The notes under the pieces are model-generated. The model had not been told where the DNA came from, did not search any database, and was given only the letters and a program-made list of their open reading frames with translations. Below are positions 12,543 to 32,913 of a stretch of 32,967 bases of DNA, piece after piece. Origin of the DNA: a virus. Each line of letters opens with the position of its first letter. Within the stretch, counting starts at the first letter, position 1. The stretch is taken from positions 1 through 32,967 of IMG/VR virus record IMGVR_UViG_3300012011_000004. One strand, given 5' to 3'. Position numbers and translations under genes: made by a program.

Positions 12543-14192
12543 TTATGGCCCTATACACTCCATTGCAAATAGCGGGATTCCCTCGTTGGGGTTAACCCCG
12601 TAGCGGGCTCCCGCTACCACCTTAACCCCCGACACAGAACCATCCGGAAATACGGGCGCCCCGATCAGCGCCGCCAGCCGGCCGTTGACCGTGAGCCAGA
12701 CCGGTCCGCCGGGTTCGGTTCGGTGCACGGTCACGCTTTCGATCAGTTCGCGGATCGATGCGGCCATGGCGGTTGTTCCGTCGCGCGCGGCAATGGCGGA
12801 TGCCAGATTGTCCACCACTTTGAGGTAATGTGCGGTCGCAGCCGGGTGAAGTGCAACCACCTTGACCGGCTCGGAAAGTCGTTCGAGTTCGGATTGAAGC
12901 CGCAGCTTTTCCCGCTCGAGGTCGGAGATCTTGCCGGTGAATTCGGCGACCGGCGCATCTGAGTCCAGCATGGCTTCCATGAGACGCGAAAGGCGTCTGG
13001 TCGTGTCCGACAATTGGCGGGACAATTGGGGGCGGATACTTTCGGCCGCGCCGGCCAGCCTTCTGCGTTCATCGTGGTAGGTTTTCAGGAAGTGCCGGAT
13101 CGCGCGCGGATCGACCAGGTGATGCCGCAGCCCTGACAGCACGGTCGCTTCGATGGTCCGCAGGTAATAGGTCCGTGAATTGTCGCAGGCCTTGGCATTG
13201 TGATGCGCCGTGCACACGATGCGCACCCCGCCGCGGTCGGTCCCCTTGATCGACATGCCGCCGCCGCAGGTGCCGCAGCGGAGCAAGCCTGAGAGAAGTG
13301 CCTTTGGCTTTCGCCGTAGTGCCGGACTTGACTTGCGGCGCGTCTGCCGGATACGCGTCGCATGGTCGAATATCTCCGGCGCCACGATCATCAGATGCGG
13401 CACTTCGGCGCGCTGCCACTCGCTTTCCGGGTTCGACCGCGAGACGCGCTTTCCGGTCTCCGGATCCTTGATCATGCGCACCCGGTTCCAGACCAGCCGG
13501 CCGCAATAGACCTCGTTGCCCAAAATGCCGTTGTGACGGTTGTTCGATCCGGTGAGCGCGCCGGGCTGCCAATGTTTTCCCCGCGGCGGTTTTATCATTT
13601 CGACATTGAGCCGACGCGCAATCGCGGGCGTGCGCTCGCCAGCGAGATACTCTTCGAAGATGCGCCGGATGATCGCGGCCTGGGCCTCGTTGACGGTCCA
13701 CATCCCAGGCCGGCCGGGCGTGGTGTCGTAGCCGTAGGCCAATCCGCCGGCGTGCTTGCCCTCCCGGATGTTGCCGGCCGCGCGCCGTCTTATCTTGTGC
13801 GCCAGATCGGTCAGAAACAGCGCCCCGACAATGCCGCGAATGCCGACCTGGACCTGATCGGTGCGGCCTTGGGTGTGCACGGCGAGGATATCGACGCCGG
13901 CAAAGGTCAGCCGGTCGTAAATCCACGGCAGATCGGTTTGCGAGCGTGACAGCCGGTCGAGTTCTTCGACGATCAATCTATCGAATAATCCGGCCTTGGC
14001 CGCAGCAAGCATGTCGGCGACGCCGGGACGGCCGTGGATCGAAGCGCCGGAGCGGGCGCGGTCGGAAAACACCGATACCACCTTCAAGCCATCGCGTTCG
14101 GCCTTGGCCCGGCACAGGGCAACCTGGTCCTCGATCGAGCGGTCGTTCTGCTTGTCGTCGGAAAACCGGGCATAGATCGCGGCGCGTTTCAT
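12543..14192 (-). CDS. int: Large serine recombinase (phage integrase)
   Basis: About 549 residues from ATG 14192. A TTG six bases earlier is also in frame, but ATG is preferred; its context has no clear Shine-Dalgarno and is coupled to the upstream gene. Resolvase domain, residues 1-140: AAIYARFS with nucleophile Ser 11, the SIEDQ segment, SGASIHGRPG and the EELDRLSRS arginine motif. Recombinase domain about 160-270. Zinc ribbon about 300-350 with LLRCGTCGGGMSIKG and later Cys residues. Coiled-coil segment about 375-440, typical of large serine integrases. Catalyses site-specific integration between attP and attB; excision normally needs a small directionality factor, for which the small neighbours are candidates. 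Confidence 0.93.
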   Translation of the reverse strand: MKRAAIYARFSDDKQNDRSIEDQVALCRAKAERDGLKVVSVFSDRARSGASIHGRPGVADMLAAAKAGLFDRLIVEELDRLSRSQTDLPWIYDRLTFAGVDILAVHTQGRTDQVQVGIRGIVGALFLTDLAHKIRRRAAGNIREGKHAGGLAYGYDTTPGRPGMWTVNEAQAAIIRRIFEEYLAGERTPAIARRLNVEMIKPPRGKHWQPGALTGSNNRHNGILGNEVYCGRLVWNRVRMIKDPETGKRVSRSNPESEWQRAEVPHLMIVAPEIFDHATRIRQTRRKSSPALRRKPKALLSGLLRCGTCGGGMSIKGTDRGGVRIVCTAHHNAKACDNSRTYYLRTIEATVLSGLRHHLVDPRAIRHFLKTYHDERRRLAGAAESIRPQLSRQLSDTTRRLSRLMEAMLDSDAPVAEFTGKISDLEREKLRLQSELERLSEPVKVVALHPAATAHYLKVVDNLASAIAARDGTTAMAASIRELIESVTVHRTEPGGPVWLTVNGRLAALIGAPVFPDGSVSGVKVVAGARYGVNPNEGIPLFAMECIGP

Positions 14193-14194
14193 CG

Positions 14195-14446
14195 TCAAAT
14201 TCGAATAGCTTCGTCGAAGCGCGCGGCATCCGTCCCCGGCTTGGCGGTGATCTTGCGCGCTTCCATGTCGACGTCGTGCTCCGCGAGGAAATCAGCCTCG
14301 GTCCAAGACATAGATTCCACTCGGCTCAACCGATGCCAGACCTTTGCGCCGCAGTGCGGGCAGTCCTCCGGAAGATAGGCTGGCGTTTTCTCCGGCATTG
14401 CCAGTGAAAGACTTCCGTCACAGCAAGGGTACGATCCAAATATCAC
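14195..14446 (-). CDS. Small zinc-ribbon protein, 83 aa
   Basis: GTG start at 14446 with GGAGG eight bases upstream. Ends two bases before the integrase ATG, so the two are probably co-translated. Cys residues in YPCCDG and CPHCGAKVWH form a likely zinc site. The remainder is acidic and helical. Being coupled to the integrase, it could be a recombination directionality factor, though zinc ribbons are not a known hallmark of those. Function otherwise unknown. Confidence 0.65.
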   Translation of the reverse strand: MIFGSYPCCDGSLSLAMPEKTPAYLPEDCPHCGAKVWHRLSRVESMSWTEADFLAEHDVDMEARKITAKPGTDAARFDEAIRI

Positions 14447-23344: not shown

Positions 23345-24039
23345 GCGAAGCAAGACTCGTGCGGGGCGAAGTCCCGCACTCATTTCTTAGTAGCTCCGGC
23401 TACGGCTCCGGCGACGGCTCCGGCGACGGCTCCGGCGACGGCTCCGGCTACGGCTCCGGCTACGGCTCCGGCTCCGGCTCCGGCTACGGCTCCGGCGACG
23501 GCTCCGGCTACGGCTACGGCTACGGCTCCGGCTACGGCTCCGGCTACGGCTCCGGCGACGGCTCCGGCTACGGCTCCGGCTACGGCTCCGGCTCCGGCGA
23601 CGGCTCCGGCTACGGCTACGGCTCCGGCGACGGCTACGGCTACGGCTCCGGCTCCGGCGACGGCGACGGCTCCGGCGACGGCTACGGCTCCAAAGAATAT
23701 TGGCTCGGCACGATTCCGAATTTTGCAAGGAAGATGCCAGAGCTGCAACAGAAGCGTTTCGCGGAGTTGCAAAAAGAAGGGGCGACCATCGCGTTCTGGC
23801 GATCGGATGAAAAGGGCCGTGCTGCGAATGGCGGGAAAAACAATCCTGTTGCGCCCGGCACTGTCGAGACGGTCGCTGGACCCTTGCGTATCTGCACCGA
23901 AAAGGCCCTGCACGCGACATTTCTTCCGCCGAAATGGAAAGGCGATCGCTGGTGGCTTGTCGCGCTGATCGGCGAGATCCAGACCGACGACGACAAGGTT
24001 GCCGCCCTCACGCGCCAGATCATCGGAGAATGTCTTTGA
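23335..24039 (+). CDS. Protein with 49 X-Gly dipeptide repeats and a DUF7666-like C-terminus
   Basis: 234 residues from ATG 23335. A 20-residue N-terminus is followed by residues 21-118, an uninterrupted run of 49 dipeptides X-G with X being Ser, Tyr or Asp. From about 119 a folded domain follows (KEYWLGTIPNFARKMPEL, ATIAFWRSDEKGR, RICTEKALHATFLPPKWKG, WWLVALIGEIQTDDDK). That domain's ICTEKALHA segment resembles DUF7666 and related phage proteins in which a Cys/His stretch closes a beta sheet. The repeat is expected to be disordered and Tyr-rich, like phase-separating low-complexity regions. Function unknown. Confidence 0.75.
   Translation: MEISEARLVRGEVPHSFLSSSGYGSGDGSGDGSGDGSGYGSGYGSGSGSGYGSGDGSGYGYGYGSGYGSGYGSGDGSGYGSGYGSGSGDGSGYGYGSGDGYGYGSGSGDGDGSGDGYGSKEYWLGTIPNFARKMPELQQKRFAELQKEGATIAFWRSDEKGRAANGGKNNPVAPGTVETVAGPLRICTEKALHATFLPPKWKGDRWWLVALIGEIQTDDDKVAALTRQIIGECL
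23395..23688 (+). repeat. 294-base low-complexity array, 49 copies of a 6-base unit
   Basis: Units are TCCGGC, TACGGC or GACGGC in mixed order with no stop and constant Gly codons (GGC). Variation is only in the first and second codon positions of the alternating residue (T/G and C/A). The length is divisible by three and by six, so expansion and contraction keep the frame. Slippage-prone. Confidence 0.9.
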
Positions 24040-31436: not shown

Positions 31437-31759
31437 GCAGGAATAAACCCGCAGACCAGTGTTGGGTCGCCAACGTTATCACCGTTTGGGGCGGCGAAAA
31501 CATCTTCATGGATAGGGCCGAAGCAGCACTTTACGCGGCCGATCCGGATGCGTTCGCAGCGCGCCACTTCGGACTGACGAAGATCGAATACTACCAATGG
31601 TTGGATACCCAAGGATCGCCGTTGTGCCGTCATCGCACCGCCCGCGGGGATCTCTGCCGAAATCTGACGGGAGGCCAGCAGCTCGCGCCAGATCACTGGA
31701 AGTCGAAGCACCGCAAGCTGTTCTGCAAAGCACACGCGCCAAAGGTGCGCTCGAAATGA
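31433..31759 (+). CDS. Hypothetical protein, 108 aa
   Basis: ATGA overlaps on both sides. Starts MSRNKPADQCWVANVITVWGGENIF. Its middle has PDAFAARHFGLTKIEYYQWL and then SPLCRHRTARGDLCRNL and KLFCKAHA, where Cys and His residues could bind zinc. Immediately precedes the replication initiator, so a replication or loader accessory is possible. Confidence 0.65.
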   Translation: MSRNKPADQCWVANVITVWGGENIFMDRAEAALYAADPDAFAARHFGLTKIEYYQWLDTQGSPLCRHRTARGDLCRNLTGGQQLAPDHWKSKHRKLFCKAHAPKVRSK

Positions 31760-32913
31760 TCATCCGCCGCCGCCACACCGCCAACTTCACGACCATCGGC
31801 AACGCGATGTTCGACGACGAACGGCTGGCCGCTGATGAAGTCGGTATCCTGGCCTATCTGTTGTCGCGACCGCACGACTGGGAGGTCCGCCGCCCGGCGC
31901 TGATGCGACGCTGGGGCATGGGCCGCGACGCGATCAAGCGCGTCATCTCGAATCTGGTGCGCTGCGGCTGGTGCCGGCCTGAAAGGACCCGGCTCGCCAA
32001 CGGAACCTTCCATGTGATCTACGAAATCCGGGACGAAAAAGGAGAAACGCTGACCGACGAAGAGGTCAGGCGGGCTTTATCGCTGGTGTCCGGCGAGGCT
32101 GCGTCTGACGATATTGACGGGTCAATCGTGCGCTCCGACGACGCTCCTGATACGGCCGATCCACCTACGGGTTACCCGTCGCTGGCTGACCCGTCGCCGG
32201 GTAACCCGTATCTGGCTAATATAAGTATACTAAACAATGAGTTACCAAGGATCGATTCTACCCAAAAGATTGAGAGAGAGCATGGGCGCGCGAAGGAAAA
32301 ACACGTCCTCAACCTTGTCGAGTTCAAACGCCGCTGGCCGACTACGGCGGCGGATGATCAGACCAAGGTCGACAGGTCCTGGTTCGCCCTGACGGCCGAG
32401 GAAGGCGAGGCGGCGCTGGCGGGGATCGCGGCGTTTTTCGAAAATCAAAAGCGCCTGCACAAAAAACACCCGCCCGCTGGATTCACCTATCTCGAACAAA
32501 AGCGCTGGACGCTCTTGGAACAACCGGAAGCCGCAAAATCACCAAGCGGCTGGCCGGTCGCAAGCGTTGAGGGCAGAGCGGTCGCCGTTTTGTACGACGT
32601 CGCTGGCCTCGGCAGCTATTTGCGCGGCGTCATGATCCGCAGCGGCGTTGTGTATTATTACCGCCCGGTTCCGCCGCGGCTTGCAGCGCTGGCACAGGCA
32701 CCACGCCCCGATGATTGGGTCACGCTCGATCGCCAGCAAGCTGCCGCATGGGAGGGGATTCTCCGCGAGGCGGTTCCCGTCGATACCCGAAAACATCTGA
32801 AGGAAGGCGACCGCGCGCCCTGGCCCTGGCCGCCGTCGGTCGAGGGCAAGATCTATCCGACCGGACCACCGGCGGCGGCGATGAGCGAACAGGATTGCGC
32901 GGAATTCAAATAA
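31756..32913 (+). CDS. Phage replication initiator-like protein, O-type
   Basis: 385 residues from ATG 31756 (MIIRRRHTANFTTIGNAMF). Residues about 1-95 form a winged-helix domain (DDERLAADEVGILAYLLSRPHDW ... RWGMGRDAIKRVISNLVRCGW) as in phage replication initiators that bind the origin. A low-complexity linker about 135-165 contains P-S-L-A-D, P-S-P-G-N, P-Y-L-A-N, encoded by the 15-base iterons. The C-terminal 200 residues are a mixed domain of unknown fold that may recruit helicase. The arrangement of DNA-binding N-terminus and origin inside the gene is lambda-O-like. Confidence 0.8.
   Translation: MIIRRRHTANFTTIGNAMFDDERLAADEVGILAYLLSRPHDWEVRRPALMRRWGMGRDAIKRVISNLVRCGWCRPERTRLANGTFHVIYEIRDEKGETLTDEEVRRALSLVSGEAASDDIDGSIVRSDDAPDTADPPTGYPSLADPSPGNPYLANISILNNELPRIDSTQKIEREHGRAKEKHVLNLVEFKRRWPTTAADDQTKVDRSWFALTAEEGEAALAGIAAFFENQKRLHKKHPPAGFTYLEQKRWTLLEQPEAAKSPSGWPVASVEGRAVAVLYDVAGLGSYLRGVMIRSGVVYYYRPVPPRLAALAQAPRPDDWVTLDRQQAAAWEGILREAVPVDTRKHLKEGDRAPWPWPPSVEGKIYPTGPPAAAMSEQDCAEFK
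32174..32248 (+). repeat. Three 15-base iterons and an AT-rich tract (candidate replication origin)
   Basis: Direct repeats at 32174-32188 (ACCCGTCGCTGGCTG), 32189-32203 (ACCCGTCGCCGGGTA) and 32204-32218 (ACCCGTATCTGGCTA) are adjacent with no gap. A weaker unit precedes them. An AT-rich stretch, TAATATAAGTATACTAAACA, follows at 32217. Iterons inside the initiator gene next to an AT-rich segment match the design of lambdoid origins. Confidence 0.6.

Follow-up and report, generated by a model that had tools for sequence, protein, structure and literature searches.

Does the replication initiator gene at the end of this phage record also hold the origin from which the phage replicates? The window, i.e., the whole stretch of DNA that was analysed, is a complete IMG/VR virus record of 32967 bases with a GC content of 59%; records of this kind may be fragments. 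The first-pass annotation had proposed a lambda-like origin hidden in the initiator gene, with repeats in the DNA that encodes a protein linker and an AT-rich tract right after them. The core of that proposal is supported by synonymous constraint on the linker codons, by the same repeat lattice in other reading frames, by covariation between protein and repeats, and by experiments reported for relatives. On these computed features, segment 32146-32275 is very likely the replication origin of the phage, embedded in its own initiator gene. The coordinates are given in Table 1.

Table 1. Features of the initiator gene and of the candidate origin in the window.
Feature	Position	Strand	Basis or property
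Replication initiator gene P0001, 385 aa	31756..32913	+	Open frame; PHROG matches; AF2 model; fold matches
Winged-helix DNA-binding domain, residues 24-72	31825..31971	+	HTH_36 match
Predicted recognition helix, residues 57-69	31924-31962	+	DSSP of AF2 model
Lys61 codon	31936-31938	+	HMM column 62
Upstream constrained block	32041..32100	+	Synonymous identity 0.86-0.90
Disordered-linker DNA, residues 112-169, pLDDT <50	32089..32262	+	AF2 model
Iteron array, five CC-N6-GG units, proposed initiator binding sites	32146..32215	+	Pattern search, tandem repeat
AT-rich tract, proposed DNA unwinding element	32216..32275	+	32% GC; synonymous identity up to 0.95
TGAGAGAG element closing the constrained block	32271..32278	+	In two reading frames among alphaproteobacterial relatives

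The initiator is composed of an HTH_36-type winged-helix N-terminus, a disordered linker, and a C-terminal part specific to its family. It matches the phage replication-initiation or DNA-binding families phrog_1456 (2.8e-11), phrog_270 (2.1e-9), phrog_4707 (4.7e-9) and phrog_428 (1e-7), also PHROG 186, and weakly the "O-like" PHROG 391 (0.0017). The Pfam HTH_36 model stays below threshold on residues 24-72 (16.9 bits against a cut-off of 25). In the AlphaFold2 model, made from 32 sequences (mean pLDDT 75.5), DSSP assigns wing strands at residues 73-79 and 85-91. Foldseek found no match to this model in the PDB at E 0.001 (best 0.015), and a sequence-profile search of solved structures returned nothing relevant to the protein. 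After a VIA step, which only re-ranked the Foldseek rows, the best matches included the primosomal protein DnaB (Z 8.6) and domain 1 of RctB, the Vibrio chromosome-2 initiator (Z 8.4). Also among them were 4pql (Z 8.0), 4pt7 (Z 7.6) and 5kbj (Z 7.2), which carry the names of a DNA-binding protein, an initiator or a Rep-DNA complex, and DnaD (Z 6.8). These Z values are middling, and TFIIE winged helices score alongside; the modelled fold is suggestive of kinship to DnaB, RctB, DnaD and plasmid initiators. Taken together, the PHROG matches, the model and the fold matches identify an HTH_36-like winged-helix N-terminal domain. No DnaD/DnaB_2 or Phg_2220 C-terminal domain was matched in the protein, nor in those of loci L096 and L098; only some initiators of the TP901-1/80alpha type carry such a domain, which is hence not defining for the type.

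No helicase loader was seen beside the initiator gene, and the record ends 54 bases after it; in locus L003 the next gene is an antiterminator. A NusG-like antiterminator lies directly after the initiator in L003 (4201-4818), L005 (3214-3882) and L006 (3187-3837). A perfect 16-bp inverted repeat pairs 31757-31772, in the start codon region of the initiator, with 32345-32360, within the gene. Elsewhere in the window, the minus strand encodes at 12543-14198 a large serine recombinase with Resolvase, Recombinase and zinc-ribbon domains, likely the integrase.

The five units of the array start at 32146 (CCTGATACGG), 32161 (CCACCTACGG), 32176 (CCGTCGCTGG), 32191 (CCGTCGCCGG) and 32206 (CCGTATCTGG), with a pitch of exactly 15 bp. 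TRF recognises 32174-32219 as a tandem repeat with a 15-bp period and 3.1 copies (77% matches, score 57). The strict three-unit CC-N6-GG pattern at this pitch gives three overlapping matches in 32967 bases, where 0.01 is expected, all of them at the array and nowhere else in the window. Units 1 and 2 resemble units 3-5 more as reverse complements; for instance, units 1 and 5 agree at 9 of 10 positions when one is inverted and at 6 of 10 when both are read directly. Of the three contiguous 15-base direct repeats described at first, the 15-bp periodicity is real, while a simple three-copy direct repeat is rejected because there are five units, two of them inverted. The peptide ascribed to the repeats, P-[SY]-[LP]-[AG]-[DN], is confirmed by the frame 31756-32913, which gives PSLAD-PSPGN-PYLAN. 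Their proposed location in the linker of a winged-helix protein also holds, as the AlphaFold2 model puts the array DNA in the disordered stretch of residues 112-169. The iterons and the greater part of the AT-rich tract lie in the linker DNA, and the order found here, a repeat array in linker DNA and then an AT-rich tract, is that of the TP901-1/80alpha type. Synonymous recoding that preserved the peptide never reached the observed self-repeat score (0 of 5000; 24 against a mean of 4.3), and permutation of all codons of the gene reached the observed maximum in 4 of 1000 cases. A separate 12-bp tandem array at 23393-23689 (24.8 copies) codes for a Gly-Ser/Tyr/Asp repeat protein, and in nine places its reverse strand is identical to the iteron-2 decamer CCGTCGCCGG, with CCGTAGCCGG frequent there as well; codon usage may have produced these by chance, or they may be a decoy for the initiator.

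The AT-rich tract was also seen correctly at first: its GC content contrasts with the 59% of the window, and it includes 40-mers whose GC, 0.275, equals the minimum for the window. It contains ATACTAA at 32227-32233, a match to the motif RTACTRA. Both features recur among relatives. In 69 of 71 clusters with at least three units, from which those whose DNA ended too near the lattice had been dropped, the 60 nt downstream of the lattice are lower in GC than the 60 nt upstream. On the gene strand, 35 of these 71 clusters carry RTACTRA, against 4.9 in shuffles; on the other strand none does. In B. subtilis, DnaD is reported to recognise single-stranded 5'-TnnT-3' pairs in CTACTATTACTTCTACTA (PMC10201434). 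By analogy with this DnaD recognition element of oriC, one may speculate that RTACTRA is a single-strand helicase-loading site. The stronger identification of RTACTRA with the DnaD element was dropped: it was a resemblance alone, and the bare TnnT core is not enriched in the 71 clusters (65 against 61.8 shuffled).

Other elements flank the array and the tract. The octamer that closes the constrained block, TGAGAGAG, occurs once in the window, and in 59 of 92 genes of the alphaproteobacterial clade against 18 of 1840 codon-shuffled genes; it lies in one codon phase in 26 genes and in another in 33. The upstream constrained block is possibly part of the origin. It includes a palindrome at 32080-32096 (TCGCTGG-TGT-CCGGCGA) both arms of which changed together in L023; this palindrome is a doubtful sixth iteron, its arms facing the wrong way for CC-N6-GG. 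A hairpin CTGACC...GGTCAG was discarded, as it is not kept in L009 or L012. The GC-skew check suggested in the first-pass annotation was run and gave no clear switch at the array, an uninformative result on a record that may be a fragment.

Whether selection acts on the DNA or only on the encoded peptide can be judged from the codons. Synonymous identity, i.e., codon agreement where two proteins share a residue, was calculated from codon alignments of relatives, with L001-L003 left out of the clade counts because they duplicate the window or L008. For the 7 sequences of the close group, it is 0.85-0.95 in windows from 32161 to ~32280 and 0.78-0.88 in those over the array itself, compared with ~0.5 along most of the gene; it rises again, to 0.84-0.90, in windows 32041 to 32115. 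The constraint is likewise highest over iterons and AT-rich tract in a clade of Bradyrhizobium phages (10 sequences; reaching 0.97 where the overall value is 0.72) and in a clade of Rhizobiaceae phages (44 sequences; up to 0.92 against an overall 0.57), and in the latter the amino-acid conservation there is only ~0.5. Among 73 clusters, a count that includes those recruited by the DNA pattern, the lattice lies in codon phase 0 in 58, encoding P-x-x-x-x peptides, and in phase 1 in 14, encoding TVNGK-like peptides rather than Pro-led pentapeptides. Since the linker codons resist synonymous change and the lattice also appears in other frames, the DNA has been selected and not only the peptide. 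The idea that the linker tolerates changes while the DNA provides the binding sites is supported by this constraint, the other-frame lattices, the non-coding repeats and covariation described below, and the experiments on relatives.

How general is this arrangement? Arrays are found at the same place in the initiators of Burkholderia, Bacteroides, Lactobacillus, Lactococcus, Staphylococcus, Parageobacillus, Microbacterium, Gordonia and Vibrio phages. The proposed comparison of iteron number was made in 36 clusters recruited by homology (70% identity), with units defined as strict CC-N6-GG at pitch 15: at least three units are present in 17 clusters, two in four, and none in 15. When the same 36 clusters were scored over a grid of pitches 12-24 and cores 8-12, 17 fell at (15, 10) and every other cell held 0 or 1; codon-shuffled regions gave three units in 0.07%. 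Relatives with an intact initiator and no iterons had been named beforehand as an observation that would count against the reading, and they exist in part, namely the 15 clusters without a strict lattice and L012, a close relative at 55% identity that also lacks it; L008 and L010 have two units only. No clear array was seen in the initiators of Rhodococcus REQ2, Helicobacter and Arthrobacter Ranunculus phages. Other phages show repeats at other distances: 14 bp in a Planktothrix phage, 16 in Flavobacterium and Terrisporobacter phages, and 24 in the Bradyrhizobium-phage clade, where L024, L004 and other loci with related initiators carry GGGTGCCC/GGGCAC units. In the Planktothrix phage (L140, 968-2131) the DNA repeat lies in the coding frame and the peptide does not repeat. 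In Streptococcus phages (L095, L142, L148) the initiator frame ends after the HTH, and the repeats and the AT-rich tract stay as non-coding DNA; in Streptococcus phages 33888 and MM1 the 15-bp repeats lie past the early stop codon of the initiator. As judged from their sequences, the Streptococcus phages represent a natural split of reader and origin. Some searches by protein yielded little: PHROG 1456 matched in 3 of 299 genomes of the phylum of G001, and single-protein scans of viral contigs yielded one locus with a Lactobacillus seed and two with a Bacteroides seed.

The relation between lattice and initiator was also approached from the DNA side. A blind scan of IMG/VR for CCG-N4-CGG three times at 15-bp pitch, which used no protein information, returned at least 120 stretches, and 85 of the 120 listed fall inside an initiator ORF or no more than 60 nt from one. 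Many of the remaining 35 are located in GC-rich sequence and have no AT-rich DNA next to them. Initiator ORFs were defined by a match to an HMM of initiator N-termini trained on diverse initiators, lambda O left out; the window protein belongs to the training set, so its own E-value is circular. Three loci (L164, L176 and L188) have the lattice with AT-rich DNA alongside and no match to this HMM in the stretch covered; they are possibly cut or unrecognised initiators.

The most specific evidence that the initiator reads the repeats comes from covariation. Each unit was read as two half-sites 5'-CC-N-N-N, with one vote per 70% cluster (76 clusters, all from loci with the lattice). At position 3 of the half-site 92% have G, in part a consequence of the blind scan, which required it; positions 4 and 5 vary and are constrained by no search. 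HTH column 62, which in the window is Lys61 of the recognition helix, is linked with position 5 much more strongly than any other column: all 16 clusters with Tyr have A there, and 22 of 38 with Arg or Lys have C. Odds ratios were computed after removal of columns with at least 20% gaps or with about 90% or more of one residue. Column 62 reached 3.72, against 1.53 for the next column, when stratified by identity (87 sequences at 85%), and 2.81 against 1.41 when also stratified by GC difference (76 clusters, 79 columns); none of 1000 GC-stratified permutations gave a value as high. With the spacer bases column 62 shows no such link (ranks 49-65 of 79). It is important to note that one spacer position reaches an odds ratio of 2.84 with column 26, equally high, so that one high ratio alone is no proof. 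The association persists in contigs of at least 55% GC (Tyr with A 10/10, Arg with C 13/15) and among homology-recruited sequences only (Tyr with A 7/7). In a tree built without column 62, on ~100 residues and with branch support not assessed, Tyr marks 14 separate clades; A accompanies it in every one, and for 13 of them the closest tip with another residue lacks A. In the window, position 5 of the half-sites is mixed (5 A and 5 C); with Lys61, which is not of the Tyr type, the window therefore fits the rule but is neither a proof nor a clean case of it. The family covariation supports the predicted binding of the initiator to its own repeats, for which Lys61 and the mixed half-sites of the window are not diagnostic.

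Several known systems place an origin inside the gene of its initiator. The replisome organizers TP901-1 ORF13 and Tuc2009 Rep are reported to bind repeats located within the genes that encode them (PMC8965321). TP901-1 shares with the window an HTH_36-like N-terminus, repeats of 15-bp pitch in the linker DNA (CCAGATGTGG twice) and an AT-rich tract after them; it differs in its DnaD/DnaB_2 C-terminal domain, its iteron core and its Lactococcus host. Tuc2009 is likened to the window from its published description (PMC8965321). In staphylococcal 80alpha, the N-terminal domain of ORF20 is of this kind too, and the gene carries a CC-N6-GG lattice of four units at 15-bp pitch; the C-terminal domain is Phg_2220_C, and the lattice lies in another codon phase, encoding TVNGK-type peptides. 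The 80alpha record annotates the origin inside the ORF20 gene; an ORF20 deletion is reported not to be complemented in trans, and ORF20-21 to suffice for plasmid replication (PMC5499656). In SPP1, oriL is described as direct repeats and an AT-rich element in gene 38, the gene of the origin-binding protein; in contrast to the window, a second origin, oriR, is described as well, SPP1 being compared here by that description (PMC6316719). Among plasmids, the Rep of pSK41 (RepA_N type) is reported to be a winged-HTH protein with its binding boxes centrally in rep and a dispensable linker, and in the chimeric pPR9 initiator an HTH_36 (pfam13730) domain replaces the RepA_N domain and the origin region as one block (PMC5703833). 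These initiators are plasmid-borne, unlike that of the window, and no RepA_N Pfam domain is found among the matches of the window protein at E 0.1.

The comparison with lambda needs to be qualified. Phage lambda has iterons and an AT-rich tract inside its initiator gene O (PMC3349717; record features), and to this extent the resemblance to the window holds. As a statement of kinship, "lambda-like" fails. The lambda initiator belongs to the Phage_rep_O family, with four 18-bp iterons whose starts lie 20-24 bp apart, and its gene is followed by P, that of the helicase loader. The window protein gives no Phage_rep_O (PF04492) match at E 0.01, while a lambda O control in the same search gave 5.7e-36, which rules out membership in the lambda O family; the best repeat lag is 15 in the window and 20 in lambda, and the spacing of lambda-type 18-bp iterons is not that of the window. 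With reader, iterons and AT-rich tract in one gene, the anatomy matches that of the experimentally examined origins of TP901-1, Tuc2009, SPP1, 80alpha and pSK41.

The winged-helix N-terminal domain would bind the five iterons, each pseudo-palindromic CC-N6-GG unit probably taking up a dimer or an oligomer of it. The initiator-iteron complex would melt the adjacent AT-rich tract, where the replicative helicase would be loaded for the origin to fire, and the encoded linker peptide, predicted to be disordered, would tolerate whatever sequence the DNA requires. A single gene holds both the reading domain and, ~200 bp away, its target, so that the two may evolve and move as one cassette.

Other explanations of the array have to be weighed against this one. 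The simplest holds that the protein needs a Pro-rich flexible pentapeptide linker and that the DNA repeats are a by-product of biased codons. The linker is indeed predicted to be disordered, and P-x-x-x-x is common in relatives (the 58 of 73 clusters in codon phase 0). As a full account, however, this is contradicted by several results: the synonymous codons of the linker are frozen in three clades, recoding of the same peptide never gives the repeat score, 14 of 73 clusters keep the DNA lattice in another frame with another peptide, the 14-bp repeat of the Planktothrix phage has no counterpart in its peptide, and the Streptococcus phages retain 15-bp repeats past a stop codon. It was rejected in this form, and its probability is close to nil. 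Another alternative is that the sites do bind the initiator but act as an operator in the control of its own expression.

Such an operator, as the sole function, is also very improbable. Sites within a gene could block transcription, and covariation, as evidence of binding, does not tell function; but two points argue against it: 69 of 71 clusters have an AT-rich tract after the array, and a strand-specific motif goes with it, as in mapped origins; and the homologous or analogous arrays of TP901-1, Tuc2009, SPP1 and 80alpha are described as origins. Autoregulation is possible as an added role beside that of origin. A further explanation, that the main origin lies elsewhere, perhaps outside the 32967-base record, and the array is only a relic or an additional one, deserves little credence as well. 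SPP1 is described as having two origins (PMC6316719), and the window, although a whole virus record, is of a kind that may be a fragment. On the other hand, the initiator has an intact frame, the sites show constraint and the lattice is found nowhere else in the record.

In its wider meaning, the embedded origin is of a known kind, of which the window is one more case, with a C-terminal part unmatched by the DnaD or Phg_2220 models. Beyond it, a very large class of initiators, with members in phages of proteobacteria, firmicutes, bacteroidetes and actinobacteria, probably shares one origin grammar and a code of inner bases read by the recognition helix, reader and target co-evolving within the gene. 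The grammar would be CC-N6-GG, usually CCG-N4-CGG, at an exact 15-bp pitch in linker-coding DNA, followed by an AT-rich tract with RTACTRA on one strand only. The four inner bases would form the specificity code for the recognition helix, in which one residue (Lys61 in the window) may largely set the innermost base, Tyr calling for A and Arg or Lys often for C. As far as the literature search reaches, the 15-bp CC-N6-GG grammar and its link to the recognition helix appear to be new: neither the lattice nor the helix/base code was present in the titles and abstract openings searched, a body of literature that most subscription journals fall outside. For the phage of the window, the origin is predicted to within ~130 bp. 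For many uncharacterised phages and prophages, the lattice offers a simple DNA signature to locate their origins. And because target and reader sit in one gene, the helix/base covariation would make the change of initiator-origin specificity without loss of function a testable protein-DNA code.
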